Position numbers and translations under genes: made by a program. The notes beneath the pieces are model-generated. The model did not search any database and was not told the origin of the DNA. It was given only the letters and a program-made list of their open reading frames with translations. Below are positions 12,078 through 64,000 of a stretch of DNA of 64,000 nt, piece by piece. Each line of letters starts with the position of its first letter. The first letter of the stretch is position 1. Source of the stretch: Streptomyces europaeiscabiei (lineage in GTDB: Bacteria; Actinomycetota; Actinomycetes; Streptomycetales; Streptomycetaceae); assembly GCF_036346855.1 (NCBI RefSeq), contig NZ_CP107841.1:8994001-9058000 (forward strand), read 5' to 3'.

Positions 12078-12108
12078 TTACTGACTCGTCATTAAATGTG
12101 ACTAGGTT
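12078..12108 (+). promoter_or_regulatory. Candidate promoter of the CapA-like gene
   Basis: TTACTG at 12078-12083 and TAGGTT at 12103-12108, spacing 19 bp, inside a locally AT-rich stretch between the sigma gene and the CapA-like gene. Initiation would fall a few bases before the ATG at 12122, giving a very short leader. Pattern match only. Confidence 0.35.
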
Positions 12109-12121
12109 GGGGTGCTCATCC

Positions 12122-33893: not shown

Positions 33894-36800
33894 TTACTTG
33901 CGGCCGATGGTGATGCCCTTCGTCTTCGCGGCCGTGTTGTTCTCGTAGACGACCGTGCCGGTGGACTTCTTCCAGATCTTGATCTTGAAGGTGTCCGGGC
34001 CGTCGGTGGCCGTGACGCGGAAGAGGTAGCCGCCCTTGCCGTTGACCGTGCCGTAGCCCTGGTAGACGGCCTTGGAACCGGTGACCACGAGCCAGTCGGA
34101 GCTGGTTGAGCGGAACTTCAGCTTGGCCCCGGCGAAGTCGAGCGAGACCTTCCCGGACGGCGTGGTGTCGCTCTTGCCGTACTTGGCGGTGAAGGAGAAG
34201 TCCGCCGTGCCGGTCAGCTTCGGGCCTGCCGGGAACGCCCCGGCGGGTGAGGTGAAGCTGCCGTCACCGGTCGCGGAACCGGCGCTCCGGTCGAAGACGA
34301 CCAGCTCGGGGATCGTGCTGCTCGCCGTGGCGCCGTCGTCGTCGGTGACGGTGATCACCGGGGCGAAGATGCCGGCCGTGCGGTAGGTGTGCTCGGCCTT
34401 GCAACTGCCGGTCGTGACCTTGCCGGCCGTCGGCTTGCCGCCGTCCTTCCAGTCGATCTCGCAGGTGTGCCCGTCGCCGGTGCCCGGGTCGGTGAACTTG
34501 ACCCTGACCCTGGTGACCTTGCCCGTTTCCGAGGTCTTCCGGCTGGTCACCGAGGTGATCTCCGGGGCCGCGTTGGTGACGGTGACGGTGGCAGTGTCGG
34601 TGCTGCGGCCGCCGGTGAGGGTGACCTCGTAGCTGCCGTTGTCGGTGCAGGTGATCGTGGTCTTCGCGGACTTGGCGTCGGCGAAGGTACAGAGTGCGCC
34701 CTTCTCGGCCGTCCACTGGGCGGTGCCCGCGCCGGAGACCGTGCCGTTCAGCTGGATCTTGGCGCCTTCCTTGCCGGAGACGTCCGCGCCGGCCCGGGCG
34801 ATGGTGACCGGGTCGATGCTCTCCAGGGTGGGGACGACCTTCTTCATCAGGCCGTCGGCGTCGAACTCCAGCTTGTCGATGGTGGTTTCGCGGTGGGTGC
34901 CGTCTCCGCCGGGGATGGCGAAGCGGTGGTAGGCGATGTACCAGTCGTCGGTGCCCGGGACATGGACCACCGAGTGGTGGCCGGGGCCCTTGATGCCGAG
35001 CGAGAGGTCCTTCTCCAGGATCACGCCCCGCTTGGTCCAGGGACCGGTGGGCGAGGAGCCGGTGGCGTAGGCGACCCGGTAGTTCTCGTCACGTGTGTCG
35101 TTCTCCGACCACATGAAGTAGTAGGTGCCCTTGCGCTTGATGACGAAGGTGCCCTCGTTGTAGCCGCTCGGCGTGATGTCGGTGACCTTCGAGGAGTCGA
35201 AGGAGACCATGTCGTCGTTGAGCGGGACGACGTAGGCGCGGCCGTTGCCCCAGTAGAGGTACGACGTGCCGTCGTCGTCGGTGAAGACCGCCGGGTCGAT
35301 CATCTGGCCCGCGCGGTCACCGACCTTCAGCAGCGGCTTGCCCAGGGCGTCCTTGAACGGGCCGGTGGGCGAGTCGGAGACCGCGACACCGATGTTCGCG
35401 TCGGCGCAGAAGTAGAAGTAGTACTTGCCGTTCTTCTCCTCCATCGCCGGCGCCCAGGCCCTGCTGTCCGCCCAGGAGACGTCCGGACCGAGGTCCAGGA
35501 TGACGCCGTGGTCCTTCCAGTTGACCAGGTCCTTGGAGGAGTACGCCTTGAACTTCGTACCGCTCCAGCCCTCGAAGCCGTCGGTGGTCGGGTAGATGTA
35601 GAAGGTGTCACCGAAGCGGACGATGTTCGGGTCCGCGTTGAGGCCGGGCAGGACCGGGCTCTTCAGCTCCCGGGCCGACACCGTCCAGGTGCGCTTCTTG
35701 CCGTCCGAACCGGTCACCTCGTACTTCACCGGCTTGCTGAAGTTCTGCACGCTGCCGGAGGCGGGGCTGATCGTCGCGCCGTGGGCGAGGGTGAACTCCG
35801 GTGCCAGCTTGGTGAGATCGGTGCCCGGCTTCATCGGCAGGGTGACGCGGCTGTCGGCGTCGTCGATGATCGCGTCGGTCTTCTGCGCCGGGTGGGTCAC
35901 CTTGGCGATGCCCGTGGTGTTGCCGCTGATCTCCAGGACCTCGGCGGCCGTCAGGGCCCGGTTGTAGATCCGGAAGTCGTCGACCTCACCGCCGAAGTAC
36001 GGGTCGGGGGAGTACATGGACCGGCCGATGTAGCCGCTGTAGTCCTTGTTCGCGTCGTACAGCTCGGACGGCTTGACGATCACGTCGGTGGCGCGGGACA
36101 CCTCGATGCCGTCCACGTAGAGGACCGCCGTCTTGGAGCCGCTGTCGATGGTGACGGTGACGTGCTGCCACTCGCCGACGGTGAGCCGGGCGCCCGACAG
36201 CTTCTTCTCCGCGCCCCAACTCGCCGCCGTGATGGCCGAGTAGAGGGACGAGGAACCGTTCGAGGGGCTGGCGAACAGGTACTTGTTGCTGTCCGGGCCG
36301 AGGCCGAACAGCCACTGCCAGTTGTCGCCGCCCTTCCACTTCGCGTACGTGGAGACGGTGACGCTGTCGGCGTTCTTCAGCACGCCGCCCGGGATCTTGA
36401 CGTACGGCGAGCTGGAGCCGCTGTTGCCGCCGGACATCTTGAACGAGCCGCCGTCGACGCCGGTCCCGAAGTCGGGCGTACGGACGTAGGTGCCGTGGTA
36501 GCCGTGACCGCTGGAGTCACGCGTGATGTTGCCGCCGGTCTCGTCGAAGCCGTAGTGCAGGAGCAGGTCGGCCGGGACGTCCGGGCCCTCGGCGGAGACC
36601 GTGACCTCGGCGCTGACCTCGATCGCCGCGTCGCCCGGCAGGTCGCCCTTCACCGTGAAGGTGCCGGCCTGCGCGTACTTCGAGGCGTCCACGTCCTCCC
36701 AGGTGACCGCGACGGGCCGCTTGGCGCCGTCGGCGAACTCCGCGATGACGGTGGCCGGCAGGACCGGGGCGTCACCGATGCGCGTCTTGACCTTGACGTC

Positions 36801-48044: not shown

Positions 48045-49088
48045 CTACTCGTCGAAGGTGACGACCACCTTCTCCGCCGCCCCCGGCGTCAGCGCCAGCT
48101 CGAAGGCCCGGTCGACGTCGGCGGCGGGCACCCGGTGGCTGATGAGCTTGGCGAAGCGCTCGTGGTGCTCGACGATCTCGGGGGTCACCTCGAAGATCTC
48201 CGTGGGGTAGCCCTGGGAGGCGATCAGGGTCAGCTCGCTGCGGAGCATGCCGCCGAGATCGATCTCCGAACCCTTCTTCTGCACGGCGACCATGACGAGC
48301 TTCGCGCCCCACTTGGCCGAGCCCACCACGGTGTTGAACACCGCGGGAACCCCGGCCGCGTCGATGAAGATGTCCGTGCCGGGCCGGGGCTGGCCGAGCG
48401 CGTTGGCGGCCCCGCCGTGCAGCTCGGTGAGCCGCGCGGCGACATCCTCCTGGGCGGAGTCGATGACGGCGTCCGCGCCCACGGCCAGTGCCTTCTCCAG
48501 CCGGGAGGGGATGACGTCGGCGACGACCACGTGCTTCACACCGCGCAGCTTCAGCCAGATCGCCGCGCCGAGACCGATGGGCCCCGCACCGAAGACGACG
48601 ACCTTGTCGTCCGGTCCCGCCCCGGAACGGTTGACGCAGTGCCGGGCCACGGCCATCGGCTCGTTGAGGGAGGCGATGGCGAAGGGCACGGTGTCGGGGA
48701 AGACGGCCACGCCCTTGCCGACCTCGGCGTTCTCGATCAGCAGGTACTCGCTCATCCCGCCGTACCTGCCGCCGCAGCCGATGATGCCGGTCGGCGCGTC
48801 CTGCGGGTTGACCACCACCCGGTCCCCGACCGCGAGACCGATGACCTCGGCGCCGACCTCGACGATCTCACCGGCCGGCTCGTGGCCGAGCGGCACCGGC
48901 ACCATCTCACCGCCCTGGTGACCACGGGCCGGCATGCCTCCCATGTGCAGGAAGGTGACGTCGGTGCCGCAGATGCCGCAGGCGCGGACGCGGACGAGCA
49001 CGTCCTTGGGGCCGGGCGCGGGGCGCTCGACGTCCACGACCTCGACCTTGCCGACACCGGCGGTCCGGACGGACTTCATCGTCGCCAT
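48045..49088 (-). CDS. Zinc-type medium-chain dehydrogenase lacking the structural zinc lobe
   Basis: 347 aa from the ATG at 49088. Catalytic zinc residues: Cys in CGICGTD (about 37) and His in LGHEPAGE (about 70). NAD(P) motif VVVFGAGPIGLGAAIWLK (about 165-182). The stretch where the structural zinc Cys cluster normally lies reads NPQDAPTGIIGCGGRYGG, with a single Cys, so the second zinc is missing. Likely an alcohol, polyol or threonine-type dehydrogenase. Shares a strand with the SDR gene, with a terminator between them. Confidence 0.86.
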   Translation of the reverse strand: MATMKSVRTAGVGKVEVVDVERPAPGPKDVLVRVRACGICGTDVTFLHMGGMPARGHQGGEMVPVPLGHEPAGEIVEVGAEVIGLAVGDRVVVNPQDAPTGIIGCGGRYGGMSEYLLIENAEVGKGVAVFPDTVPFAIASLNEPMAVARHCVNRSGAGPDDKVVVFGAGPIGLGAAIWLKLRGVKHVVVADVIPSRLEKALAVGADAVIDSAQEDVAARLTELHGGAANALGQPRPGTDIFIDAAGVPAVFNTVVGSAKWGAKLVMVAVQKKGSEIDLGGMLRSELTLIASQGYPTEIFEVTPEIVEHHERFAKLISHRVPAADVDRAFELALTPGAAEKVVVTFDE

Positions 49089-49158
49089 GGAAAGACTCAC
49101 TTTCTGGGGGAACCGGAGGAGAGGTACCGCCGCCGTGGGCGGGCGGAGAGAGGTGTTG

Positions 49159-49225: not shown

Positions 49226-49993
49226 TCAGACGGCGGCCCAGGCGTCGTCGACGGGCAGGACCACGCCGTTGACGAAGGCGGCGGCGTCGGAGGCCAGGAA
49301 GAGGATCGCGTCGGCCTGCTCCTCGGCGGTGCCGAGGCGGCCGATGTTGGCGCCGATCAGCCCGCCGATGACCGCGGGGCCGTGGGCCTGCTGGTCGGCG
49401 TCGACCTTGATGTTGGTCATCGTGGGGCCGGGGGCTATCGCGTTGGCCCGGATGCCCTGCTTGCGGTACATCACCGACAGGCTCTTCACCAGGCCGACGA
49501 CACCGTGCTTCGACGCGGTGTAGGCGGCACCCGCCGCGCTGCCGCGCAGTCCGGCCTCGGAGGCGGTGAAGACGATCGTGCCGCGCCCCGCCTTCAGCAT
49601 GTGCGGCAGAGCGGCCCGGGTGAGCAGGAACGGCGCCGTCAGGTTGACCCGGATGACCCGCTCCCACTCGGCGTCCGCGACGTCCGCGAGGGCCGACATC
49701 CGGTCCATGATCCCGGCGTTGTTCACCAGGACGTCCAGCCCGCCGAAGGCCTCCACGGCACGCTCGACGACCTCGTCGACGACCGACTGGTCGCTGAGGT
49801 CGCCGACGACCCCGACAGCGGTGCCGCCGGCCGTCCCGATCGCCCGGACGGTCTCCTCGGCGGCCTCCTTGTCGAGGTCGGCGACCAGGACCTTCGCGCC
49901 CGCCGCGGCGAACTTCAGGGCCGCGGCCCGTCCGATGCCGGAACCGGCACCCGTGACGACGACACTGCGGCCGTCGAGACCGTTGCTGCTCAT
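49226..49993 (-). CDS. Classical SDR oxidoreductase
   Basis: 255 aa. All SDR motifs: TGAGSGIGRAA (cofactor), LVNNAGIMD, Ser in VFTASEAG, YTASK (Tyr/Lys) and NAIAPGPTMT. VADLDKEAAEE suggests NAD rather than NADP. The substrate is unknown. The neighbouring MarR gene may control it, although a pseudogene lies between them. Confidence 0.9.
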   Translation of the reverse strand: MSSNGLDGRSVVVTGAGSGIGRAAALKFAAAGAKVLVADLDKEAAEETVRAIGTAGGTAVGVVGDLSDQSVVDEVVERAVEAFGGLDVLVNNAGIMDRMSALADVADAEWERVIRVNLTAPFLLTRAALPHMLKAGRGTIVFTASEAGLRGSAAGAAYTASKHGVVGLVKSLSVMYRKQGIRANAIAPGPTMTNIKVDADQQAHGPAVIGGLIGANIGRLGTAEEQADAILFLASDAAAFVNGVVLPVDDAWAAV

Positions 49994-51545: not shown

Positions 51546-52322
51546 ACGGGGCCGAAGGGTCGGGCGGAGGGAGCGGGGGTCGATGAGTGTGCCGGAGCGG
51601 ATGAAAGGCGAGGGCGCGGAGTTCGGAAGGCGGCGGGCACGGACGGCAGCGGGCACGGACGGCATCGAGCACGGGCGGCAGCGAGCGCGGAGCAGCCGCC
51701 GTCGGCGAAGGGGCCCGCACGTGCGACACCCGGCGAGTCGTCTGCCCCCGCCCGAACCCCGACGCCACGCTCCGAGCCCGCATGGATGGGTCCCGGAACG
51801 ACAAGCCGCCCCGCCGACGGAAGGGACCGTGCCGGTGCGTAACAGCCCCTCGCATACATCGGCCCGAAGAACGCCGCCCACCCACCCCCGAGCAGCAGGG
51901 CACCAGCGACAGCTCTCCACACCGCCGACACCCCGTTCGCGGCGGAGCCGCGCCCCAAGAGGGGCGCGGGGAACTGTGCGAGCGGCCACACGTCACCCGC
52001 AGGCGCTCGCGCGACAGCACTCCACGTCGATCAGGCGTCCGCCATCGCGCCGGGTGGGCCCGGCCGCCCCGAAGTCCCCGGCCGCACACTCGAACCGGCC
52101 GACCGTTGGAGGTATCTCGTTCGCGGCGGAGCCGCCCCAGGAGGGGCGCGGGGAACTGTGCGAGCGGCCACACGTCACCCGCAGGCGCTCGCGCGGCAGC
52201 ACTCCACGGCGATCAGGCGTCCGCCATCGCGCCGGGTGGGCCCGGCCGCCCCGAAGTCCCCGGCCGCGCACTCGAACCGGCCGACCGCCGGAGGCCCCCC
52301 GCAAGGAAAGAGCCCTACACGA
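51546..52322. other. 777-nt gene-free region
   Basis: No convincing coding region on either strand. It holds the 183-bp tandem duplication (51935-52303) with dispersed-repeat copies H and I. The left half (51546-51930) has a Ser/Arg/Pro-rich apparent translation in all frames and nothing recognisable. Confidence 0.6.
51935..52303. repeat. 183-bp direct tandem duplication carrying dispersed-repeat copies H and I
   Basis: 51935-52118 and 52119-52303 are nearly identical, with a few substitutions and 2-nt indels. Each begins GTTCGCGGCGGAGCCG, contains AGGGGCGCGGGGAACTGTGC (51960 and 52142) and ends near CGAACCGGCCGACCG. The second copy ends 20 nt before the response-regulator start. Confidence 0.9.
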
Positions 52323-53057
52323 ATGGCCTTAACCATGTACGGCAGTGCCAGTGAGAAACCCTCGCTCCCCCGGGGCGCGGGCCAGCACCTCCTGATCGTG
52401 GTCGACGACCCGGACGTCGTCGAACTCCTCTCCACGACACTGGAGTTGGCGGGCTACCGGATTGAGACGGCCGAGTCGGGCACGGAGGCGGTGGCGCGGC
52501 TCACCGAGCGGCGGTTCGACCTGGTGGTGCTCGATCTGGCGCTGCCGGACCTGGAGGACCTCGGGCGGGAGCGCCGCCCCGTCGCCCACCGTCCTCCGGT
52601 GCTGTTCCTGACGCGGTACGACTCGCTCGGCAGACTTCTCCCCGAAGTCGGCCTGGGTGAGCAGGACTACGTCACCAAGCCCTTCCGTATCGCCGAGGTG
52701 CTGGCCCGCGCCCAGGTCCTGCTGCGCGGCCGGAAAGCCGTCCGGCGGGACAACGAACTGTCGTACCGCGACCTGGTCCTGGACGACCCCGCCTGCCAGG
52801 CCCTGCGCGCGGGCCGGGCGTTGAACCTCACCCCGGCGGAGTACCGGTTGCTGCGCTACCTTCTGGTCAACGCGCACAAGGTGCTGTCGAAGGAGCAGAT
52901 CGGCCGCTATGTGTGGGGTGACTTCCATGGCGACAACGCCATCGAGCAGCTCGTCTCCCGCCTCCGCCGCAAGGTGGACCGCGAGGGCCCGCCGTTGATC
53001 CACACCCGCCGGGGCTTCGGCTACTGGCTCGGCAGACCCGGCGACCGGGAGCGCTGA
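52323..53057 (+). CDS. Orphan OmpR-type response regulator with TTA codon 3
   Basis: 244 aa from the ATG at 52323 (MALTMYGS); 52335 is the alternative. With 52323 the third codon is TTA (52329-52331), so the protein should depend on bldA. AAGGAAAG lies 15 nt upstream, rather far. Receiver VVDDPDVVELL, phospho-Asp in VVLDLALPD, Thr in FLTRYD and Lys in VTKPF. Winged HTH LTPAEYRLLRYLLVN then LIHTRRGFGYWLG. No kinase gene adjoins. Repeats of 11-bp phase lie between it and the P450 gene, suggesting control of the cassette. Confidence 0.88.
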   Translation: MALTMYGSASEKPSLPRGAGQHLLIVVDDPDVVELLSTTLELAGYRIETAESGTEAVARLTERRFDLVVLDLALPDLEDLGRERRPVAHRPPVLFLTRYDSLGRLLPEVGLGEQDYVTKPFRIAEVLARAQVLLRGRKAVRRDNELSYRDLVLDDPACQALRAGRALNLTPAEYRLLRYLLVNAHKVLSKEQIGRYVWGDFHGDNAIEQLVSRLRRKVDREGPPLIHTRRGFGYWLGRPGDRER

Positions 53058-53446: not shown

Positions 53447-54688
53447 ATGGCCGACACACTGACCGACGCCGCGTCCGGCACGAGCGGACAGGTCCCCGAG
53501 TACCCGATGCCCAGGGCGTCGGGCTGCCCGCTCGCGCCGCCGCCGGCCGCGGCGGAGCTGCGCGGCGACCAGCCGGTCACCAAGGTGCGGATCTGGAACG
53601 GCAGTACCCCGTGGCTGATCACCCGCCACGCCGACCAGCGGACCCTGCTCACCGACCCGCGTGTCAGCAACGACGACCACGAGCCGGACTTCCCCCATGT
53701 CAACGCCCACCGGGCGGCCATCGCCCCGCACACCCCGAAGCTGATCACCAACACGGACGCGCCGGAGCACACCCGGCTGCGCCGCTCGGTCAACGCGCCG
53801 TTCCTGGTGAAGCGGATCGAGGCGATGCGCCCGGCCGTGCAGAAGATCGTCGACGACCTGATCGACGACATGCTGGCCGGCCCCAACCCGGCCGACCTGC
53901 TCACCGCGCTGGCCCTGCCCGTGCCGTCGCTGGTCATCGCCGAGCTGCTCGGAGTGCCGTACAAGGACCACGAGTTCTTCCAGGAGAACAGCAACCGCGT
54001 CCTCGACAACTCCCTCACCGCAGAGGAGGCCCAGGAGTCCAGCCGTGCCCTCGGCGGGTATCTTGACGCGCTGTTCCGGGAGAAGCTCGAACAGCCGGGC
54101 GACGACGTGCTGTCCGAGATGGGCACCCGGGTCAAGGTCGGCGAGATGACCCACCAGGAGGCCGTCAGCATGGGCGTCGCCATGCTGATCGCCGGGCACG
54201 AGACCACGGCCACGATGATCAGCCTCGGCACGCTCGCCCTGTTCGAGCACCCTGACCAGCTGGCCGTGCTGCGGGACACCGAGGACCCGAAGGTCGTCGC
54301 GGGCGCCGTCGACGAGCTGCTGCGCTATCTGTCCATCGTCCACTCGGGTCTGCGCCGGGTGGCCAAGGACGACATCGAGATCGACGGTCAGGTCATCCGC
54401 AAGGGCGACGGCCTCCTCTTCGACCTCCAGACCGCCAACTGGGACCCGATCGCCTTCCCCGAGGCCGAGCGCCTGGACCTGAGCCGCCCCGCCCGCCAGC
54501 ACAACGCGTTCGGTTACGGCCCCCACCAGTGCCTCGGCCAGAACCTGGCCCGCCTCGAACTGCAGGTCGTCTACGGCACCCTCTACCGGCGTATCCCCAC
54601 CCTCCGCCCGGCCGCCCCGATCGAGCAGCTGGCGTTCAACCACACGGGGACGACGTACGGCGTGAAGTGCCTGCCCGTCGCCTGGTGA
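53447..54688 (+). CDS. Cytochrome P450 (CYP105-like)
   Basis: 413 aa, a soluble bacterial P450. I-helix AGHETTA with the O2-activating acid-Thr pair (about 250-256), ELLR (ExxR, about 289-292) and haem loop FGYGPHQCLGQ (Cys about 362). The sequence and the ferredoxin immediately after it resemble the CYP105 group, which accepts many hydrophobic substrates. It needs two electrons from the ferredoxin and reductase encoded next. Reaction: probable hydroxylation of an aliphatic or terpenoid-like molecule (inference). Confidence 0.93.
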   Translation: MADTLTDAASGTSGQVPEYPMPRASGCPLAPPPAAAELRGDQPVTKVRIWNGSTPWLITRHADQRTLLTDPRVSNDDHEPDFPHVNAHRAAIAPHTPKLITNTDAPEHTRLRRSVNAPFLVKRIEAMRPAVQKIVDDLIDDMLAGPNPADLLTALALPVPSLVIAELLGVPYKDHEFFQENSNRVLDNSLTAEEAQESSRALGGYLDALFREKLEQPGDDVLSEMGTRVKVGEMTHQEAVSMGVAMLIAGHETTATMISLGTLALFEHPDQLAVLRDTEDPKVVAGAVDELLRYLSIVHSGLRRVAKDDIEIDGQVIRKGDGLLFDLQTANWDPIAFPEAERLDLSRPARQHNAFGYGPHQCLGQNLARLELQVVYGTLYRRIPTLRPAAPIEQLAFNHTGTTYGVKCLPVAW

Positions 54689-54764
54689 CACCGCGCCCGG
54701 TGTCTCCCCACCCGGTGACACCCCCACCTCGCCCCCACAAGTACCAAGAACCGAGGAGCAATCC

Positions 54765-54962
54765 ATGCGTGTGGAACTCGACGAGCCCAAGTGCGTGGCC
54801 TCCGGCCAGTGTGTGATGGCCTCCCCCGAGGTGTTCGACCAGCGGGACGACGACGGTGTCGCGATCCTGCTGGAGGAGCACCCCGCCGACGACCTCATGG
54901 ACGGCGTGCAGGAGGCCGTCGCGATCTGTCCCGCCGCCGCGATCCGACTGGTGGACCGGTGA
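54765..54962 (+). CDS. 3Fe-4S-type ferredoxin
   Basis: 65 aa. Cluster ligands CVASGQC and, towards the end, ICPAAAI; the second Cys of a 4Fe site is absent (CxxxxxC), giving the 3Fe-4S type typical of P450 partners such as SubA/SubB. 76 nt after the P450 gene and overlapping the reductase start (GTGA). Confidence 0.93.
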   Translation: MRVELDEPKCVASGQCVMASPEVFDQRDDDGVAILLEEHPADDLMDGVQEAVAICPAAAIRLVDR

Positions 54963-56170
54963 GGCGCATCCTGGTCGTGGGTGCCTCGGCCGCCGGGATG
55001 GCGGCGGCCGAGACGCTGCGCCGCGAGGGCTACGACGGCACGCTCACCCTCGTCGGCGACGAACCGCACGCCCCGTACGACCGGCCCCCGCTGTCCAAGC
55101 AGCTCCTCGCCGCGGAGTGGGACACCGACCGGCTGACCCTGCGCACCCCGGCCCACCTCGACGGCCTCGACCTGGACCTGCGCCTCGGGGCCGCCGCGAC
55201 AGGCCTCGACCTGAAAGAACGTCAAGTACACCTCGCGGACGGCGATTCGGTGCCGTACGACGGACTGGTGATCGCCACGGGCGTACGGCCGCGGCGGCTG
55301 CCCGGTGAGGGTGCGCATGTGCTGCGCACCCTGGACGACGCGCTGACGCTGCGGGAGCAGCTGGCGCCGGGGACGCGGCTGGTCGTGGTCGGCGCCGGGT
55401 TCCTCGGGGCGGAGGCCGCCGCCGTCGCCTGGCGGCTCGGCGTGAAGGTCACCCTCCTCGAACCGGCGTCGGTACCGCTGGCGCACGCGGTCGGCGGGGA
55501 CGTCGGCGCGGTGCTGTCCCGGGCCCACCTCGACCACGGGGTGGACCTGCGCACCGGCGTCACCGTCACCGAGGTGACCGAGGACGGGGTGCGGCTCGCG
55601 GACGGCGAGTCGATCGAGGCCGACGAGGTGCTGGTCGCCATCGGCTCCCTGCCCAACACCGAATGGCTGGCGGACAGCGGCCTGGACGTCGGTGACGGTG
55701 TGCTGTGCGACGAGTACTGCGAGGCCGCGCGGAACGTGTACGCGGCCGGTGACGTCGCCCGCTGGTACAACCCGCTCTTCGGCGCGTCGATGCGCGTCGA
55801 GCACCGTACGAACGCCGCCGAGCAGGGCATGGCGGTCGCCCGCAACCTGCTCGGGCCCGAGACACGCAAGCCGTTCGCGCCGGTGCCGTACTTCTGGTCC
55901 GACCAGTACGACATGAAGGTTCAGGCCTACGGCCATCTGCGGGGTCACGACGAGGTCGCCGTAGTCGACGGGAACCTGGCCGAACGCCGGTTCGTGGCCG
56001 TCTACCGCACCGACGACCGGGTGACCGGCGCCCTGGCCGTCGGTATGCCACCCAGGGCGATCCGGCAGTGGCGGCAGGCCATCGCGTCCGGTGCGCGCTG
56101 GCACGAGGCGGTACCCGACAAGAGCCCGACCCTGCGGGAGGAGGCCGAACGTGGTGGAACAGCTGCCTGA
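54959..56170 (+). CDS. FAD-dependent ferredoxin reductase
   Basis: 403 aa, GTG start at 54959 overlapping the ferredoxin stop. FAD motif RRILVVGASAAGMAAAETLRR, DRPPLSKQLL (typical of putidaredoxin-reductase relatives), second dinucleotide motif LVVVGAGFLGAEAAAVAWRLG (about 142-162), and NVYAAGDVARW. It passes electrons from NAD(P)H to the ferredoxin for the P450. The 3' end overlaps the SDR gene by 20 nt. Confidence 0.93.
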   Translation: MRRILVVGASAAGMAAAETLRREGYDGTLTLVGDEPHAPYDRPPLSKQLLAAEWDTDRLTLRTPAHLDGLDLDLRLGAAATGLDLKERQVHLADGDSVPYDGLVIATGVRPRRLPGEGAHVLRTLDDALTLREQLAPGTRLVVVGAGFLGAEAAAVAWRLGVKVTLLEPASVPLAHAVGGDVGAVLSRAHLDHGVDLRTGVTVTEVTEDGVRLADGESIEADEVLVAIGSLPNTEWLADSGLDVGDGVLCDEYCEAARNVYAAGDVARWYNPLFGASMRVEHRTNAAEQGMAVARNLLGPETRKPFAPVPYFWSDQYDMKVQAYGHLRGHDEVAVVDGNLAERRFVAVYRTDDRVTGALAVGMPPRAIRQWRQAIASGARWHEAVPDKSPTLREEAERGGTAA

Positions 56171-56990
56171 CCGAGGCGGTGAGGTGGTCGTCGTCACCGG
56201 CGCCGGTGGCATGGGCGTGGCGATCGCGCGGCGGATCGGCAGCGGGCGGACCGTTCTCCTCGCCGACGCCTCGCGCGGTCAACTCGACCGGGCCGTACAG
56301 GCGTTGCGCGACGAGGGGTACGCGGTGCGGGGTGTCCTGACCGACGTGTCCGACCGCGAGTCCGTGGACGAGCTCGCGGCGGAGGCGGCCGGTGCGGGCC
56401 GGGTGGCCGCCGTCGCGCACACCGCGGGTGTCTCTGCCGCCCAGGGTTCTGCGAAGACGATCCTGGAGGTCGACCTGCTGGGCACGGCCCACGTCATCGA
56501 CGCCTTCGAGGCCGTGGCCACGCCGGGGACGGCCATGGTGTGCGTCTCCAGCATGGCCGGCCATGTCGCCTCCCTCGGTCTGGAGGACGAGGCCGCCCTC
56601 GCCACGGCCCCCGTGGGAGAACTCCTCGGGATCGGTGCCGTCGAAGCCGTCGGGGACAGCCCGACAAGGGCGTACATCGTGTCCAAGCGGGCCAACCAGG
56701 TGCGCGTCGAGGCGGCAGCGCTCGCCTGGAGCCGACGCGGCGCCCGCATCAACAGCGTCAGCCCGGGGGTCATCGCCACCGCCATGTCGAAGGCGGAGGC
56801 CGAGGGCCCGAGCGGCGCGCACATGCTCGCGATGCTGGAGGCGAGCGGCGCGGGCCGCACCGGCACACCGACCGAGATCGCCGACGCCGTGGCATTCCTC
56901 GTCGGTCCCGAAGCGCGTTACATCACCGGTACGGACCTCCTCGTCGACGGCGGGCAGGCCGCCTGGCTACGGCGCCACCGACCGGCCTGA
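56151..56990 (+). CDS. SDR alcohol/steroid-type dehydrogenase
   Basis: 279 aa from the GTG at 56151 (56154 is also GTG), inside the reductase 3' end. VVVTGAGGMGVAIARRI (cofactor), AHTAGVSA at the NNAG position, Ser in CVSSMAG, YIVSK (Tyr/Lys) and SPGVIATAMS. The arrangement with Met-Ala-Gly after the Ser resembles 3-alpha-hydroxysteroid dehydrogenase relatives. It would oxidise the alcohol made by the P450 to a ketone. Same operon. Confidence 0.9.
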   Translation: MVEQLPDRGGEVVVVTGAGGMGVAIARRIGSGRTVLLADASRGQLDRAVQALRDEGYAVRGVLTDVSDRESVDELAAEAAGAGRVAAVAHTAGVSAAQGSAKTILEVDLLGTAHVIDAFEAVATPGTAMVCVSSMAGHVASLGLEDEAALATAPVGELLGIGAVEAVGDSPTRAYIVSKRANQVRVEAAALAWSRRGARINSVSPGVIATAMSKAEAEGPSGAHMLAMLEASGAGRTGTPTEIADAVAFLVGPEARYITGTDLLVDGGQAAWLRRHRPA

Positions 56991-57012
56991 CACGACGGCG
57001 CGGACAGGACGG

Positions 57013-57386
57013 CACCACCGAACCACCGGGATCATCGGGGCCACCGAACCACCGAACCACCGAACCACCGGGACCACCGAACCACCGGGGCCACCGAACC
57101 ACCGAACCACCGGGACTACCGGGACCACCGGAACCACCGGGACCATCGGAACCACCGGAACCACCGGGACCATCGGGACCATCGGGACCACCGAACCACC
57201 GGAACCATCGGGACCATCGGGACCACCGAACCACCGGGACCACCGGAACCACCGGAACCACCGGAACCACCGGAACCACCGGGACCACCGAACCATCGGA
57301 ACCATCGGGACCATCGGGACCACCGAACCACCGGGACCACCGGGACCACCGGAACCACCGGAACCACCGGAACCACCGCACCACCC
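57013..57386. repeat. 374-bp minisatellite (GGAACCACC / GGGACCATC units)
   Basis: About 40 head-to-tail units of 8-9 nt, mainly GGAACCACC, GAACCACC and GGGACCATC. One strand is almost free of T, the other of A. Translations are Pro/His/Thr/Gly repeats in all frames. It lies between the SDR stop (56990) and the BVMO start (57422), in a cassette where the other gaps are short or negative. Confidence 0.95.
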
Positions 57387-57421
57387 ACAACAGACGTATC
57401 AGGACCGCAGAGAGGACACCG

Positions 57422-59254
57422 ATGTCCACCCCCCACGCTCCGACCGGCCCCACGTCCATCGACCCGGAGAAGCTGGGCTTCGACCCCGAAGCCCTCCGCG
57501 CCCGGTACCGGACCGAGCGCGAACGCCGGATCCGGCCGGACGGCGGCGCGCAGTACCGGCGGATCGCCGGTGAGTTCGTCTCCTACGACGACGACCCCTA
57601 CGCCGACCAGGAGTTCACCCGCGAGCCGCTGCACGACCGGGTCGAGGCGGTCGTCGTCGGCGGCGGCTTCGGCGGGCTGCTCGCCGCGGCCCGGTTGCGC
57701 CAGGCGGGCGTCGAATCGATCCGGGTGATCGAGAAGGGCGGCGACTTCGGCGGCACCTGGTACTGGAACCGCTACCCCGGCATCCACTGCGACATCGAGT
57801 CGTACATCTATCTGCCGCTGCTCGAAGAGCTGGGCTACGTCCCGAAGTGGAAGTACGCGCCGGGCGAGGAGATCCGGCAGCACACCCGGGCCATCGGCCG
57901 CCACTTCGACCTCTACGGCGACGCCTGCTTCCAGACCGTCGCCACCGAACTGCGCTGGGACGAGACCGAGTTGGAGTGGATCGTCGCCACCGACCGCGGC
58001 GACCGCATGCGGGCCCGCTACGTCGTCGTCTCCAGCGGCACACTCAGCCAGCCGAAGCTCCCCGGCATCCCCGGCATCGAGACCTTCAAGGGCCACACCT
58101 TCCACACCAGCCGCTGGGACTACGACTACACCGGCGGCGACGCGAACGGCGGCCTCACCGGGCTCGCCGACAAGCGGGTGGCCGTCATCGGTACCGGCGC
58201 CACCGCCATCCAGGTCGTTCCCCACCTCGGGGCCGACGCGGCGCACGTGTACGTCTTCCAGCGCACCCCCTCGACGGTCGACGTACGCGGCAACGGCCCC
58301 ACCGACCCGGAGTGGGCGAAGACGCTCACCCCCGGCTGGCAGGGGCGGCGCATGGACAACTTCCTCAAGACCGTCACCGGTGTGCGGGCCGGGAAGGACC
58401 TGGTGAACGACGCCTGGACCAGCAGCGCCCGCCTCCAGGAGAAGCTCATCCCGACCGACGCGTACGCCGACGTACCGGCGGACGAGCGCGAACGGGCGTA
58501 CGAGATCGCCGACTTCCAGAAGATGAACGAGCTGCGCGACCGGGTGGCGGCGATCGTCGAGGACCCGGAGACCGCCGAGAAGCTGAAGCCCTGGTACCGC
58601 TACATGTGCAAGCGCCCCACCTTCAGCGACCACTACCTGCAGACCTTCAACCGGCCCAACGTCACGCTCGTCGACACGGCCGACACCCACGGCGTCGAGC
58701 GGATCACCGACAGGGCCGTCGTGGTCGGCGGGGTCGAGTACGAGGTGGACTGCGTCATCTTCGCCACCGGCTTCGAAGTCGGCGTCTCGGGGCTGCTCTC
58801 GGGCCGGCTCCCGGCGTACGGCCGGGACGGCGTCGGCCTGCTGGAGACCTGGATGACGGCCGGCCCGAAGACCCTCCACGGCTTCTACAGCCACGGCTTC
58901 CCCAACCTCTTCCAGCTCGGCCCCATGCAGAACGCCAGCGCCGTCAACTACGTCCACATCCTCGACCAGCAGTCGGTCCACGTCGGCGAGGTCGTCGCAG
59001 AGGCCCGCAGGCGCCGCGCCCGGTATGTCGAGCCGACCGCCGAGGCCGAGGCCGCCTGGGTCGCCACCATCCGCGAGAAGGCCGCCGACCTGCACGCGTT
59101 CCAGGCGGAGTGCACCCCCGGCTACTACAACAACGAGGGCCGGCCCAGGAAGCGCAGTGAGTCGTACGGCGACGGCCCGGTCGCCTTCCATGAACTGCTC
59201 CGCCACTGGCGCTCCGACGGCGGCATGGACGACGTGCTCGTCGGCGCCGAGTGA
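57422..59254 (+). CDS. Type I Baeyer-Villiger FAD monooxygenase
   Basis: 610 aa from the ATG at 57422, with AGAGAGGA 6 nt upstream. FAD motif VVVGGGFGGLLAAARLRQ (about 77-94), BVMO fingerprint FKGHTFHTSRWD (FxGxxxHxxxWD, about 221-232), NADPH motif VAVIGTGATAIQ (about 253-264), FATGFEV near 446. The N-terminal extension of about 70 residues (ending EPLHDRVEAV) is common in cycloalkanone and steroid or terpenoid monooxygenases. It converts a ketone to an ester or lactone. An HG or TG context at the fingerprint cannot decide the substrate. Confidence 0.92.
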   Translation: MSTPHAPTGPTSIDPEKLGFDPEALRARYRTERERRIRPDGGAQYRRIAGEFVSYDDDPYADQEFTREPLHDRVEAVVVGGGFGGLLAAARLRQAGVESIRVIEKGGDFGGTWYWNRYPGIHCDIESYIYLPLLEELGYVPKWKYAPGEEIRQHTRAIGRHFDLYGDACFQTVATELRWDETELEWIVATDRGDRMRARYVVVSSGTLSQPKLPGIPGIETFKGHTFHTSRWDYDYTGGDANGGLTGLADKRVAVIGTGATAIQVVPHLGADAAHVYVFQRTPSTVDVRGNGPTDPEWAKTLTPGWQGRRMDNFLKTVTGVRAGKDLVNDAWTSSARLQEKLIPTDAYADVPADERERAYEIADFQKMNELRDRVAAIVEDPETAEKLKPWYRYMCKRPTFSDHYLQTFNRPNVTLVDTADTHGVERITDRAVVVGGVEYEVDCVIFATGFEVGVSGLLSGRLPAYGRDGVGLLETWMTAGPKTLHGFYSHGFPNLFQLGPMQNASAVNYVHILDQQSVHVGEVVAEARRRRARYVEPTAEAEAAWVATIREKAADLHAFQAECTPGYYNNEGRPRKRSESYGDGPVAFHELLRHWRSDGGMDDVLVGAE

Positions 59255-59280
59255 GGCCGGGCGAGAGGGTGGGAGACGAC

Positions 59281-61002
59281 ATGAGCAAGCGGCCCAACCG
59301 GTACGACGAGACCGGCGATCTGCGTACCACCAGTGCCCGTTGGCGGGCGCGGCGGCTCAACCTGCCCAGTCCGCTGTGGGGTTCCAACGGGGTCGCGTTC
59401 GGCCCCGACGGTCGGCTGTACGTGGCGCAGTTCCTCGCCGGGCAGATCAGCGCCGTCGACCCGGCCACCGGGGACGTCGACGTCGTCGTCCCGATGGACA
59501 GCCCGGTGCAGTCGCCGGACGACCTCGCCTTCGGCGCCGACGGCTCGATGTACATAGCCGACCTGGTGCCCGGCCGGGTGTGGAGACGGACCCCGGCGGG
59601 GGAGTACAGCCTCGTCACCGACGACGTGACGAACCCCAACGGCATCACCTGTATCGGGGACCGGCTCTTCATCAACGAGATGAAGCCCAACGGCCGTCTG
59701 ATGGAGCTGTTCCCGGACGGTGGCGACCCGGTGGTGCTCACCGAGGGCCTGGCCCTCGGCAACGCGATGCAGCGCGGCCCGGACGGCCACCTCTACTACC
59801 CGCACATGATCACCGGGCAGGTCTGGCGCATCCCGCCGGACGGCGGCACGCCCGAGGTGGTCGCCGAGGACGTGCACGAGCCGGTCGCGGTCCGTTTCGA
59901 CCAGGGCGGTGTCCTGCACGTCGTCTCCCGGGGCGTCGAGGGCATCGTCACCCGCATCGACCTGCACGGCAGCGGTACCCGCACGCTCGTCACCAGCGGT
60001 CTGAAGGGGCTGGACAACGCGGCGTTCGACGCCGAGAACCGCATGTTCGTCTCCAGCTATGCCAGTGGCGGCGTCACCGAGCTGCACCCCGACGGCCGCA
60101 CCCGCGAGATCGTGCGCCGCGGCCTCGACGGCCCCTACGGCGTGACGGTCGACCTCGGCGGTACGGTCTACGCCGCCGACCACTACCGGCTGGCGAGCCC
60201 GGCGGCCACCGACGAGGGCGAGCCGGTCGGCACGTCCGTGGAGACCGGGCCCGGCGGTGTGCGGACCCACCTCCTGCTGCCCTTCGCCCACGGCATCACC
60301 GCCGACGGTGAACTGCTGCACTACACCTCGCAGTTCGGCATGGTGCAGACGTACGACACCGCGAGTGCGGCGGTCCGGGAGCGGGCACGGGGGCTGAACC
60401 GCCCCATCGGCATCGCGGTCGGGCCGGACGGTTCGCTCGTGGTCGCCGAGACGGGAGCGGGCCGGGTCGTGGCCATCGGGGACGAAGGCGGTGCCCGTAC
60501 CGATGCCGATTCCGGCACCGGTACGGGCACCGCCGCCACCGCCGCCACCGTGACCGTGCTCGCCGAAGGCCTCGACCGGCCCACGGACGTGGCCTTCGAC
60601 GCGGAGGGCCGTCTCTACGTCAGCGAGGAGCGGCTCGGGACGGTGCTCCGGATCGACACGGACGGCCGGACGGCCCTCGTCGTGGGCGGGCTGGGCGCAC
60701 CCCAGGGCCTGGCGGTCCTGGGCGAGGAGCTGTTCGTGGTGGAGACCGGGCCGCGCAGGCTTCGCGCGGTCTCCCTCACCACGGGGGAGCGGCGGATCGA
60801 CGCGGAGGACCTGCCGGTCGGGCCGCCCCCGGGTGTCGTCCCCCGCACCGAACCGGCGCTGTTCGCGGACATCATGCCCGGTATGGCCCGCCGCTTCGCG
60901 GGCCTCGCCGCCGCCCCGGACGGCACCCTCCTGCTGTCGGCCAACGGTGAGGGCACCGTGCTGCGGCTGACGCCGAGGACGGGGGCTCAGCCGGAGCGGT
61001 AG
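59281..61002 (+). CDS. SMP-30/gluconolactonase-like beta-propeller protein
   Basis: 573 aa from the ATG at 59281, with GGGAG 7 nt upstream; the GTG at 59251 overlaps the BVMO stop and is a second choice. Repeating propeller blades: GVAFGPDGRLYVAQF, DDLAFGADGSMYIADL, NAFDAENRMFVSSYA-like, GIAVGPDGSLVVAETG and DVAFDAEGRLYVSEE, consistent with two six-bladed lactonase-type propellers or one extended one. Members hydrolyse lactones with Ca2+. Position directly after the BVMO makes hydrolysis of its product likely. Its last 16 nt overlap the convergent LysR gene. Confidence 0.85.
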   Translation: MSKRPNRYDETGDLRTTSARWRARRLNLPSPLWGSNGVAFGPDGRLYVAQFLAGQISAVDPATGDVDVVVPMDSPVQSPDDLAFGADGSMYIADLVPGRVWRRTPAGEYSLVTDDVTNPNGITCIGDRLFINEMKPNGRLMELFPDGGDPVVLTEGLALGNAMQRGPDGHLYYPHMITGQVWRIPPDGGTPEVVAEDVHEPVAVRFDQGGVLHVVSRGVEGIVTRIDLHGSGTRTLVTSGLKGLDNAAFDAENRMFVSSYASGGVTELHPDGRTREIVRRGLDGPYGVTVDLGGTVYAADHYRLASPAATDEGEPVGTSVETGPGGVRTHLLLPFAHGITADGELLHYTSQFGMVQTYDTASAAVRERARGLNRPIGIAVGPDGSLVVAETGAGRVVAIGDEGGARTDADSGTGTGTAATAATVTVLAEGLDRPTDVAFDAEGRLYVSEERLGTVLRIDTDGRTALVVGGLGAPQGLAVLGEELFVVETGPRRLRAVSLTTGERRIDAEDLPVGPPPGVVPRTEPALFADIMPGMARRFAGLAAAPDGTLLLSANGEGTVLRLTPRTGAQPER

Positions 61003-61889
61003 AGCGCCGTCAGCAGTTCGATGGCGGCCGGGGTGGCGGGATGCGGGTCGTCCCGCCACCAGGCGAGCCGTACGGCGATCGGCTCGGCGTCGCGCACCGG
61101 CCGGTAGACGACGCCGGGCCGCCGGTACTGGTTGGCGGTGGACTCCGCCGTCACGCCGATGGCACGGCCCGTCGCGATCGTGGTGAGCCACTCGTCGACG
61201 TCGTGCGTCTCCTCGGTCGCCGGACGGGCGTCGGGCGGCCACAGGTCGGTGGTGGTCGTGCCGGTCCGGCGGTCGACCAGCAGGGTGTGTCTGCTCAGGT
61301 CGGCGAGCCGCACCGACCGGCGGCGGGCCAGCGGATCGTCGCTCGCCATCGCGCACAGCCGCCGTTCCAGGCCCACGATCGCCGAGTCGAACCGGCGGTC
61401 GTCCACCGCCCACCGGACCACCGCGAGATCGCAGGAGCCCTCCGCCAGCCCGGCGGTCGGGGAGTTGGCCCGCACGAACTGCAGATCCGTCGCCGGGTGC
61501 GCGGCACCCCAGCGGCGCTGGAACGCGGGTGTGTGCCGGCCCAGCGCCGACCAGGCGTAACCGATCCGCAGCCGCACCCGGCCCGAGGTCGCCTCCCGCA
61601 CCAGGTCGTCCACCTCGCCGAGCACCCGTCGTGCGTGCGACACCACCCGCAGTCCGGTCGGTGTGGGCGTCACCTCGCGGGAGTTCCGCCGCAACAGCCG
61701 TACGCCCAGGGCCCGTTCGAGCGAGGCCAGGGTGCGGGACACCGCCGCCTGGGAGACGCCGAGCGCGATGGCCGCGTCGGTGAAGGTGCCCTCCTCGACG
61801 ATCGCGACCAGACAGCGCAGCTGTCGCAGCTCCACATCCCTGACGGCCGGGGCCGGACCGGCACCCCGCTGCGGCCTCGTGTCATCCAT
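60987..61889 (-). CDS. LysR-family regulator, divergent from the EamA exporter gene
   Basis: 300 aa from the ATG at 61889. HTH at about 15-75 (VELRQLRCLVAIVEEGTFTDAA, SQAAVSRTLASLERALG). Effector domain RLRIGYAWSALGRHTP onward; the C-terminal domain contains LVDRRTGTTTTDLWPP. It is divergent from the exporter, the usual layout for a regulator of an efflux gene, and a small LysR-like inverted repeat lies between. Confidence 0.9.
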   Translation of the reverse strand: MDDTRPQRGAGPAPAVRDVELRQLRCLVAIVEEGTFTDAAIALGVSQAAVSRTLASLERALGVRLLRRNSREVTPTPTGLRVVSHARRVLGEVDDLVREATSGRVRLRIGYAWSALGRHTPAFQRRWGAAHPATDLQFVRANSPTAGLAEGSCDLAVVRWAVDDRRFDSAIVGLERRLCAMASDDPLARRRSVRLADLSRHTLLVDRRTGTTTTDLWPPDARPATEETHDVDEWLTTIATGRAIGVTAESTANQYRRPGVVYRPVRDAEPIAVRLAWWRDDPHPATPAAIELLTALYRSG

Positions 61890-61915
61890 GACTCCAGCGT
61901 ATGGATCGGGACGCG

Positions 61916-61932
61916 GATGCATTTTGGGCATC
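61916..61932. promoter_or_regulatory. LysR-type inverted repeat at the exporter promoter
   Basis: GATGC-N7-GCATC, containing T-N11-A, between the LysR start and the exporter start. Confidence 0.6.
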
Positions 61933-61957
61933 GGTCGCCCGGGCGCACGATCGGCCC

Positions 61958-62896
61958 ATGGACACCACCGCGGCCTCCGCCCCCGACTCCTCCGGTACGG
62001 TCCCCGCATCCCCCGCCCCCGCCCCCACCTCCGTCTCGGCTCCGGCCCCCGTTCCCGGGTCGGGTGGGGCCCGCCTGGCCGGGGTCCTCACCATGGTCGG
62101 CTGCGGGGTGTCCAACCAGGTCGGGGCCGCGCTGGGTTCACTGGCCTTCCCGGTGCTCGGGCCCGCCGGGGTCGTCGCGGTACGGCAGTACGTCGCCGCG
62201 ATCGTCCTCGTGGCCGTCGCCCGGCCCCGGCTGCGGTCCTTCACCGCGCGGCAGTGGTGGCCGGTGGTGCTGCTGGCACTGGTCTTCGGGACGATGAACC
62301 TGTCGCTGTACACGGCCATCGACCGCATCGGTCTCGGGCTCGCGGTGACCCTGGAGTTCCTCGGCCCGCTCGCCATCGCCCTGGCCGGCTCGCGCCGCCG
62401 GGTGGACGCGTGCTGCGCGCTGATCGCCGCCCTCGGCGTGGTCACCCTGATGCGTCCGCAGCCCTCCGCCGACCACCTCGGCATGGGGCTCGGCCTTCTC
62501 GCCGCCGTCTGCTGGGCGTCGTACATCCTCCTCAACCGCACGGTCGGCCGCCGTATCCCCGGCGCGCAGGGTTCGGCCGCCGCCGCCGGGCTCTCCGCCC
62601 TGGCCTTCCTGCCGGTCGGCATCGTCGTGGTCGTCCGGCAGCCGCCGACCGCCGGGGCCGTCGGCTACGCGATCGCCGCCGGCGTCCTCGCCTCGGCCGT
62701 GCCGTACCTCGCGGACGTGTTCACCCTGCGCCGCGTGCCCGCCCAGGTCTTCGGGCTCTTCATGAGCGTCAACCCCGTCCTGGCCGCCCTGGCCGGCTGG
62801 ATCATGCTCGGGCAGGGCCTCGGGTGGATCGAGTGGGCCGCGATCGGCGCGGTGGTCGCGGCGAACGCGCTGAGCATGCTCGTACCCCGCCGCTGA
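61958..62896 (+). CDS. EamA/RhtA-type DMT exporter
   Basis: 312 aa from the ATG at 61958. After an Ala/Pro/Ser-rich cytosolic start, about ten membrane helices in two EamA repeats: GVLTMVGCGVSNQVGAALGSLAF, VVAVRQYVAAIVLVAVARP, GLGLGLLAAVCWASYILLNRTVG-like and VFGLFMSVNPVLAALAGWIMLGQ. RhtA-like proteins export homoserine, threonine or aromatic compounds and drugs. Here it could export a pathway intermediate or a toxic substrate. Confidence 0.88.
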   Translation: MDTTAASAPDSSGTVPASPAPAPTSVSAPAPVPGSGGARLAGVLTMVGCGVSNQVGAALGSLAFPVLGPAGVVAVRQYVAAIVLVAVARPRLRSFTARQWWPVVLLALVFGTMNLSLYTAIDRIGLGLAVTLEFLGPLAIALAGSRRRVDACCALIAALGVVTLMRPQPSADHLGMGLGLLAAVCWASYILLNRTVGRRIPGAQGSAAAAGLSALAFLPVGIVVVVRQPPTAGAVGYAIAAGVLASAVPYLADVFTLRRVPAQVFGLFMSVNPVLAALAGWIMLGQGLGWIEWAAIGAVVAANALSMLVPRR

Positions 62897-62945
62897 CGCA
62901 CCTGGGGGAGAGGGCCGGGGGTGGATCCACTCTGTGTCGGGGTTC

Positions 62946-62979
62946 ATGGACACTTGCTCATTTCTTGACAGGTGTCCAT
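62946..62979. promoter_or_regulatory. TetR operator overlapping a leaderless promoter
   Basis: ATGGACAC (62946-62953) and GTGTCCAT (62972-62979) are perfect inverted arms 18 bp apart. TTATCT (62979-62984) is a possible -10 just before the ATG at 62990. The operator therefore sits over the core promoter and fits autorepression. Confidence 0.7.
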
Positions 62980-62989
62980 TATCTTGGTC

Positions 62990-63631
62990 ATGAAGCAGGA
63001 ACCCACCGAGTCGACGACGCCCCCGCCGCGCATGGACCGCAGAGTCCGCCGCTCCCGCTCCGCGTTGATGCGGGCGGCGATCGCCCTGGTCACCGAGCGG
63101 GGCACGACGGCCGTGCCGGTGTCGGAGATCGCCGAGGCCGCGGATGTGAGCCGACAGGTGCTGTACCAGCAGTTCGGCGACCGTGACGGGCTGCTGCTCA
63201 GGGCCGCGCTCGACCTCGCCCGGCGCGAACTGATCGAGGGCCCCGCGTACGACTCGGCGGACATGACCGACCGGGCCGGGGTTCTGGCCATGGCACGGCA
63301 CTTCGCGGAGCACCGCGGCTTCTACCGCGCGATGTTCACCGGGTCCTGCGCGTTCGACCTGAACAGGGCGCTGACCGAACTGATCATCCCGGCCAACCGG
63401 GAGGTCGTACGCCACAGACACGGCACCGACCTCGCCCCCGAGCTGGTCGACGACCTCGCGACGTTCCTCACCGGCGGCGCCTCCGCAGTCGTCAACACCT
63501 GGGTCGTGGCGGGCGAAGAGCCGCTCGACCCCGAGGAGTTCACCGACCGGCTCATGCGGATGGTGCCCGTGGTCGCCACCGCGCTGGGCCGGTCCACCAC
63601 ACCCGCACCGAACCAGGAGCAACGCCGGTGA
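62990..63631 (+). CDS. TetR-family regulator
   Basis: 213 aa from the ATG at 62990. N-terminal HTH RSRSALMRAAIALVTERGTTAVPVSEIAEAADVSRQVLYQQFGDRDGLLL in family-typical arrangement at about 20-68. The C-terminal ligand region is helix-rich (MARHFAEHRGFYRAMF). No Shine-Dalgarno sequence; probably leaderless. Overlaps the hydrolase gene start (GTGA), so both form an operon. Confidence 0.9.
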   Translation: MKQEPTESTTPPPRMDRRVRRSRSALMRAAIALVTERGTTAVPVSEIAEAADVSRQVLYQQFGDRDGLLLRAALDLARRELIEGPAYDSADMTDRAGVLAMARHFAEHRGFYRAMFTGSCAFDLNRALTELIIPANREVVRHRHGTDLAPELVDDLATFLTGGASAVVNTWVVAGEEPLDPEEFTDRLMRMVPVVATALGRSTTPAPNQEQRR

Positions 63632-64000
63632 ACCTGAGCAGCCACCTCATCCAACGCGCACTGAAACTGCCGCCGCCGCTCACCCGGGACCTCGTCGTCG
63701 AGCGGGACCTGCGGGTGCCGATGCCCGACGGGGCCGACCTGCTCGCCGACCGCTGGGCGCCGCGCACCGGCGCCGAGGGCCTGCCGACCGCGCTGATCCG
63801 CTGCCCGTACGGCAGGCGGGGCGCGATCGCCCTCGGGGCGGTCCGACCGCTGGCCGAGCGCGGATACCAGGTGCTGATCCAGAGCACCCGCGGCGGCTTC
63901 GGCTCCGGTGGCACCCCCGACCACATGCGGCAGGAGCGTGCGGACGGCCTGGCCACCCTGGACTGGCTCGTCGAGCAGCCGTGGGCCGGTGACGCGATCG
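63628..64000 (+). CDS. CocE/NonD (X-Pro dipeptidase S15) family hydrolase, truncated at the window end
   Basis: Only the first 124 codons are in the window. GTG start overlaps the TetR stop. Motifs of the alpha/beta-hydrolase N-terminal domain: VERDLRVPMPDGADLLADRW, LIRCPYGRRG, RGYQVLIQSTRGGFGSGG and DGLATLDWLVEQPWAGD. The nucleophile Ser lies beyond the edge. Family members hydrolyse esters or acyl bonds (cocaine esterase, glutaryl acylases). It could open the ester made by the BVMO. Confidence 0.85.
   Translation, partial: MNLSSHLIQRALKLPPPLTRDLVVERDLRVPMPDGADLLADRWAPRTGAEGLPTALIRCPYGRRGAIALGAVRPLAERGYQVLIQSTRGGFGSGGTPDHMRQERADGLATLDWLVEQPWAGDAI

Follow-up and report, generated by a model that had tools for sequence, protein, structure and literature searches.

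A Baeyer-Villiger monooxygenase paired with a tandem beta-propeller protein as the core of a putative two-module ring-opening cassette in Streptomyces europaeiscabiei

Hydroxylation, dehydrogenation to a ketone, Baeyer-Villiger insertion and opening of the lactone form an order of reactions which is already known from the routes for camphor and cyclohexanol. All four kinds of enzyme, lactone opening being the putative one, are encoded together in a gene cassette at 9.05 Mb in the 10.95-Mb genome of Streptomyces europaeiscabiei (assembly GCF_036346855.1), which its best protein matches place near the S. scabiei/europaeiscabiei group. The cassette lies in a stretch of 64,000 nucleotides (contig NZ_CP107841.1, positions 8,994,001 to 9,058,000, forward strand), which as a whole is called the window and to which all coordinates below refer. 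The cassette contains genes for a cytochrome P450 with ferredoxin and ferredoxin reductase, a short-chain dehydrogenase/reductase (SDR), a Baeyer-Villiger monooxygenase (BVMO) and a tandem beta-propeller protein. Papers cited by PMC number were available as excerpts, to which the statements on them refer.

In the camphor pathway of Pseudomonas putida (camDCAB) an operon for a P450 system and a dehydrogenase is likewise followed by a Baeyer-Villiger step (PMC4097962). However, the camphor lactone is said to open spontaneously (PMC4097962), whereas the BVMO of the cassette has a propeller partner, and the first Baeyer-Villiger enzymes of camphor are two-component (title of PMC6352141), whereas the one described here is of type I. 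Degradation of cyclohexanol, and a designed cascade of P450, alcohol dehydrogenase, BVMO and lactonase, show the same order of reactions (PMC7542165), but the cyclohexanol route concerns small rings and proceeds by further dehydrogenases to a diacid; the cassette has a BVMO of the PockeMO/PtlE type, and no such genes were present among the 21 scanned. An earlier note on this DNA, made from the sequence, had stated that similar logic was known elsewhere, which is correct for the order of reactions in the camphor and cyclohexanol routes (PMC4097962, PMC7542165). No description of the pair of BVMO and propeller protein, or of such a pair with exchangeable hydroxylases, was found in titles, abstract openings and excerpts of the open PMC literature, a set which leaves out most subscription journals; specifically, the excerpts of PMC6058054, PMC6237146, PMC7542165, PMC4097962, PMC12250605 and PMC12239570 do not describe the pair.

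The BVMO shares its subfamily with PtlE and PntE (neopentalenolactone and pentalenolactone D synthases), reaching 732.5 bits with the NCBIfam model PtlE (NF045818). The cassette differs from the PtlE/PntE case in that this score is below the equivalog cut-off of 1100, in the candidate for lactone opening which adjoins the BVMO, and in the lack of a nearby terpene synthase of family PF19086, the only family searched, whose matches in the genome are at 1.03 and 8.16 Mb, the nearest about 0.89 Mb distant. Two BVMOs characterised from Streptomyces, MO-G35A and Sle_62070 of S. leeuwenhoekii, belong to the PntE/PockeMO-like branch and are likened here by branch (PMC6058054, PMC12250605). Sle_62070 and Sle_13190 convert bicyclic, phenyl-substituted and steroid ketones (PMC6058054); for MO-G35A, which has an SDR downstream, the authors of the 2025 paper could not determine the native substrate (PMC12250605). 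The excerpts of a paper on a progesterone BVMO mention neither lactonase nor SMP-30. On the side of the P450, CYP105Q4 of Mycobacterium marinum, which works with ferredoxin Fdx9, is the second-best PDB match, and both ferredoxins contain CXXSXXC; the text of the paper on this P450 mentions no BVMO (0 occurrences of "Baeyer"), whereas the cassette has one. The propeller protein resembles virginiamycin B lyase and SMP-30/gluconolactonase in the Pfam cut-offs which it passes and in the fold of its N-terminal propeller, but it has two propellers per chain and is fixed beside a BVMO.

Reading frames, Pfam and NCBIfam matches and motifs agree on the gene set and order which the earlier note had given: P450, ferredoxin, reductase, SDR, BVMO, propeller protein, LysR, EamA, TetR, CocE/NonD hydrolase. 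The redox partners of the P450 are included, as had been said. What had been named a lactonase is the propeller gene beside the BVMO; the gene is there, its activity is putative. The features on which the argument rests are the following:

53447–54688, + strand: cytochrome P450, CYP105-like, 413 aa, module A (Pfam p450; best PDB matches 5y1i, then CYP105Q4 8swl)
54765–54962, + strand: single-cluster ferredoxin, 65 aa, module A (Pfam Fer4_13/Fer4_15; CXXSXXC...CP motif)
54959–56170, + strand: ferredoxin reductase, 403 aa, GTG start, module A (Pfam Pyr_redox_2 and Reductase_C)
56151–56990, + strand: SDR dehydrogenase, 279 aa, module A (NCBIfam PRK06940.1, 299.8 bits, cut-off 280; YIVSK)
57010–57378: array of about 42 tandem 9-bp units between SDR and BVMO (TRF)
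57422–59254, + strand: type I BVMO, 610 aa, PtlE/PockeMO branch, core (module B) (fingerprint, two Rossmann motifs; best PDB sequence match 5mq6, E 3e-129)
59251–61002, + strand: tandem beta-propeller protein, putative lactone-opening enzyme, 583 aa, core (module B) (Vgb_lyase, SGL and NHL matches)
49226–49993, − strand: second SDR (SDR2), outside the stretch picked out by the earlier note, frequent partner of the BVMO pair (Pfam)

The cassette is a composite of two separable modules, and its core is the BVMO with the propeller protein. With a probability of roughly 0.6 we read it as a route, either catabolic or detoxifying, which opens the ring of a bulky cyclic ketone and in which the hydroxylases are exchangeable.

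The constancy of the pair was assessed among 392 Streptomyces genomes, 54 of which contained the propeller gene at E ≤ 1e-60 (55 matches, including the genome of the window); all 54 propeller loci other than the window entered the counts. In 53 of them BVMO and propeller gene are adjacent and share a strand, three with the BVMO covered only in part (L046, 36%; L235, 66%; L236, 28%); the remaining locus, L237, lacks a BVMO and has just a piece of the propeller gene. Three other BVMO genes in the genome of the window have no propeller or SMP-30 homologue in the surrounding 20-kb stretches. The pairing thus exceeds chance.

The P450 (at least 65% identity) is near the pair in 10 of the 54 other loci, or 11 of 55 with the window, and 44 do not have it; the search for the same gene order elsewhere, which the earlier note had recommended, thus gave the arrangement in a minority of cases. 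In the reverse direction, 13 other P450 loci (L205–L217, 71–79% identity) have ferredoxin and reductase, but neither BVMO nor propeller gene; the SDR was seen in 11 of these, with partial coverage in L213 and L215, and a P450 match in G120 (L221, at a contig end) was kept outside this count. L207 has SDR2, the response regulator, the genes from P450 to SDR, LysR and genes of gallate type, without BVMO or propeller gene. More distant P450s (51–61%) accompany the pair in L058, L059 and L220, and are found in its absence in L219 and L222. Natural losses fit this picture: of the P450, L123 retains only the C-terminal 39 residues and L124 nothing, both having kept the pair. A single fixed pathway, as the earlier note had assumed, was rejected since each module occurs without the other, although the reaction logic fits the families.

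Broader sampling of the BVMO (80 of 585 loci kept as the named set, which overlaps with the propeller set; L122, L131 and L141 repeat the contigs of L038, L040 and L041) showed the double propeller beside the BVMO in 41 of 80 loci, counting the propeller gene from 30% coverage (39 if tallied by single pieces), and in 34 of the 37 with at least 75% BVMO identity. In nine of the 80 loci (BVMO 61–66%) an SMP-30-type protein is the next gene 3' of the BVMO on the same strand and replaces the double propeller. In four of these stand-ins (L164, L166, L176 and L184) the match to Pfam SGL spans most of the profile or the whole of it, and the other five are homologues of the scanned ones at 53–63% identity; the nine include L179, a near-copy of L176, and L184, labelled Vibrio cholerae. 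The contig of L184 (strain label 35D) carries at 9127–12837 a set of SDR2-like, BVMO and SMP-30-type genes which is actinobacterial in the BVMO tree; this assembly is probably contaminated. No SMP-30 homologue at 40% identity or more was detected in 60 double-propeller loci (L034–L073, L102–L121). Neither kind of propeller was seen in 30 of the 80 loci, including all 11 at 50–60% BVMO identity, although some of these loci end within 1–2 kb of the BVMO; the pairing is therefore confined to some members of the BVMO family. On the BVMO tree, starred branches require at least 9 changes of the label "LAC", which means that the pairing is clustered, but not of a single clean origin.

A class-wide search found the propeller gene at E ≤ 1e-40 in 41 of 394 genomes, and 20 loci from other genera (17 genomes) were examined. 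A BVMO (48–75% identity) lies within 6 kb of the propeller gene, on either strand, in 19 of these 20; L119 has none and L103 only a part. The Rieske oxygenase that was noticed first in L117 has homologues in 15 of the 20; a CoA-transferase III (at least 75%) is present in nine, an enzyme of the TPP lyase type in six and an aldehyde dehydrogenase (at least 70%) in six. This gene company looks catabolic.

The motifs to be expected are complete in P450, ferredoxin and BVMO. The heme motif of the P450 reads FGYGPHQCLG, and together with the ferredoxin and ferredoxin reductase genes it constitutes a class I bacterial P450 system; with the NCBIfam model for pentalenolactone synthase the P450 scores 264 bits, far under the cut-off of 700. 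In the SDR the motif YxxxK was found (YIVSK), and scanning for the usual TGxxxGxG gave none, the sequence being TGAGGMG. The BVMO has the fingerprint FxGxxxHxxxW[P/D] (FKGHTFHTSRWD at 222) and Rossmann motifs at 80 and 257. A 4-bp overlap joins the ferredoxin and reductase genes; the SDR gene starts inside the reductase gene, overlapping its stop. Read from 59251, the propeller gene shares 4 bp with the end of the BVMO gene; with the ATG at 59281, ten codons further on, which is the start used by most homologues, the gap would be 26 bp.

In the proposed pathway the P450 of module A, with ferredoxin and reductase, would hydroxylate an unactivated carbon, and the SDR would oxidise the alcohol to a ketone, a step for which SDR2 could substitute. 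SDR2 occurs at 55% identity or more in 21 of the 54 propeller loci, in several of which it directly adjoins the pair on the same strand. The BVMO would then insert oxygen next to the ketone, and the propeller protein could open the lactone; the likelier mode is hydrolysis, which would give a hydroxy acid, the less likely one elimination. A bulky substrate is probable, i.e., polycyclic and terpenoid- or steroid-like, by analogy with the ketones reported for this BVMO branch (PMC6058054). Gene content, motifs, conservation and the fact that the modules can be separated are observations; that one substrate passes through both modules, the direction in which the SDR works and the purpose of the route are points which we infer. 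The catabolic reading draws on the clusters seen outside the genus and on the absence of a PF19086 terpene synthase nearby.

Several observations weigh against this reading. Neither sequence nor fold is diagnostic of lactone opening, and among the 21 genes scanned in the neighbourhood of the window no acyl-CoA or aldehyde-dehydrogenase gene was present, which argues against full breakdown here and leaves detoxification as a possibility. The 13 P450 loci without BVMO and the 44 pair loci without that P450 would also suit two separate functions, namely a stand-alone P450 oxidation unit and a stand-alone unit converting a ketone to a hydroxy acid, with an adjacency that is accidental or due to shared regulation. 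We regard this explanation as rather unlikely. The P450s beside a BVMO do not form one clade, and strong branches of the P450 tree force three changes (matches covering under 80% were removed from the P450 and BVMO trees); thus, the arrangement arose, or was retained, repeatedly. The spacing between SDR and BVMO is only 45–117 bp in 13 related loci, and in four P450-BVMO loci without SDR (L034, L065, L132 and L218) the BVMO starts 87–198 bp after the reductase. The spacing in the window is 431 bp, most of it the 9-bp array, for which the gaps of the related loci are too short. The array shows a higher-order period of 97 bp, and an exact 32-mer of it has no second site in the genome.

The remaining points against the reading concern the propeller protein, which could also act as a non-enzymatic partner of the BVMO, for binding or as a scaffold. 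The AF2 model of the whole protein (pLDDT 86; 91 for a model of the N-terminal propeller alone) has a tandem NHL-like fold with top structural matches over its whole length, and the C-terminal half conserves chiefly Gly and Pro. With Pfam the protein scores 63.1 bits for Vgb_lyase (cut-off 50; profile positions 5–282 of 290), 61.0 bits for SGL (cut-off 26.3; the best stretch covering only 115–216 of 246) and 55.6 bits for NHL (cut-off 20); the NCBIfam models ScyD/ScyE are also exceeded. Against a scaffold, nine polar residues of the N-terminal propeller (N46, D90, D91, N130, E143, E152, N171, D255 and N256) are invariant across 34 sequences, whose identity goes down to 36% (101 matches were reduced to 96 by removing those with stops or with at most 450 residues, and 34 were aligned), and proteins of the SMP-30 type occupy its place in nine loci. 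A scaffold therefore appears unlikely to us, and the propeller protein, judged by its families and neighbours, probably opens the lactone. This role gains from the near-constant pairing with the BVMO, from the exchange for SMP-30-type proteins in the same position and from the Rieske oxygenase which accompanies the pair in 15 of 20 loci outside the genus. Profile comparison of the N-terminal propeller with these stand-ins gave a probability of 98 and E 1.9e-13, but the register is unsafe because of the repeats. The metal site of SMP-30/gluconolactonase (Glu/Asn/Asp) invites comparison with the invariant N and D residues; because of the ambiguous register its transfer to the propeller protein was abandoned, and so was the use of the fold comparison as proof of a lactonase, since it is not diagnostic.

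Opening by elimination, as in virginiamycin B lyase, would produce not a hydroxy acid but an unsaturated one. The Vgb_lyase score would suit such a reaction, but the stand-ins are SMP-30-type, the catalytic His of Vgb (H270, according to the title of the PDB entry) was not placed in the propeller protein, and in the fold comparison of the N-terminal propeller the next-ranked, non-enzymatic rows follow within 1 to 1.5 Z, so that this variant seems quite improbable. Very improbable, and rejected as pentalenolactone-type biosynthesis, is a set for tailoring a natural product whose lactone is exported by EamA, which the PtlE branch of the BVMO, the pentalenolactone synthase match of the P450 and the EamA gene downstream would favour, but against which stand both missed cut-offs, the distance to the nearest PF19086 synthase and the lactone-opening candidate fixed beside the BVMO.

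Around the two modules lie the following genes:

48045–49100, − strand: Zn-dependent alcohol dehydrogenase adjoining SDR2, accessory (Pfam)
52329–53057, + strand: response regulator 5' of the P450, accessory (Pfam Response_reg and Trans_reg_C)
60987–62009, − strand: LysR regulator, accessory, convergent with the propeller gene (Pfam)
61901–62896, + strand: EamA-family transporter, accessory, alternative start 62093 (Pfam)
62972–63631: TetR regulator
63628–65238: CocE/NonD hydrolase, extending beyond the end of the window

The Zn-dehydrogenase occurs together with SDR2 in L034, L037, L123 and L213. A second CYP105-like P450 (59–64%) is found upstream of SDR2 in L040, L041, L131, L132 and L141. 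The response regulator lies upstream of the P450 or the BVMO in related loci, too; upstream of it in the window is a direct duplication of 182 bp (51934–52294, 95% matching). The exporter, the two regulators and the second hydrolase of the earlier note are all encoded there, but not all belong to the cassette: LysR and EamA occur together in 7 of 40 propeller loci, whereas TetR and CocE were rejected as parts because among 40 + 80 loci they occur jointly at good identity solely in L124. Beyond the window, at 65326–69759 (L003:4326–8759), a gallate-like meta-cleavage cluster encodes GntR, a PIG-L protein, a LigK-like aldolase, and a 4-oxalomesaconate tautomerase and an enzyme of the catechol-2,3-dioxygenase type, the latter two over their cut-offs. 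Such genes adjoin the cassette in 3 of the 40 propeller loci and 4 of the 80 named BVMO loci, and in L207 they adjoin module A without BVMO; they were rejected as a continuation of the pathway. The window also encodes, at 33894–39086 on the minus strand, a protein of 1730 aa with GH43, laminin-G-like, bacterial Ig and PKD domains. Signals in a scan for promoters and terminators were not above those of shuffled sequences.

A wider view can be proposed tentatively: BVMO and propeller protein could perhaps be a widespread, unnamed actinobacterial core for ring opening, directed at a common bulky cyclic compound of the environment and provided with pluggable front ends. Equally tentative is the assignment of these front ends, which might be the CYP105 P450 module in some Streptomyces and, in other genera, the Rieske oxygenase together with genes of CoA type. 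If true, actinobacterial genes now listed as "flavin-containing monooxygenase" and "hypothetical / SMP-30" would be tied into one pathway, the BVMOs of PockeMO/PtlE type which are used in biocatalysis would obtain a likely setting, and matched enzyme pairs with interchangeable hydroxylases would become available.

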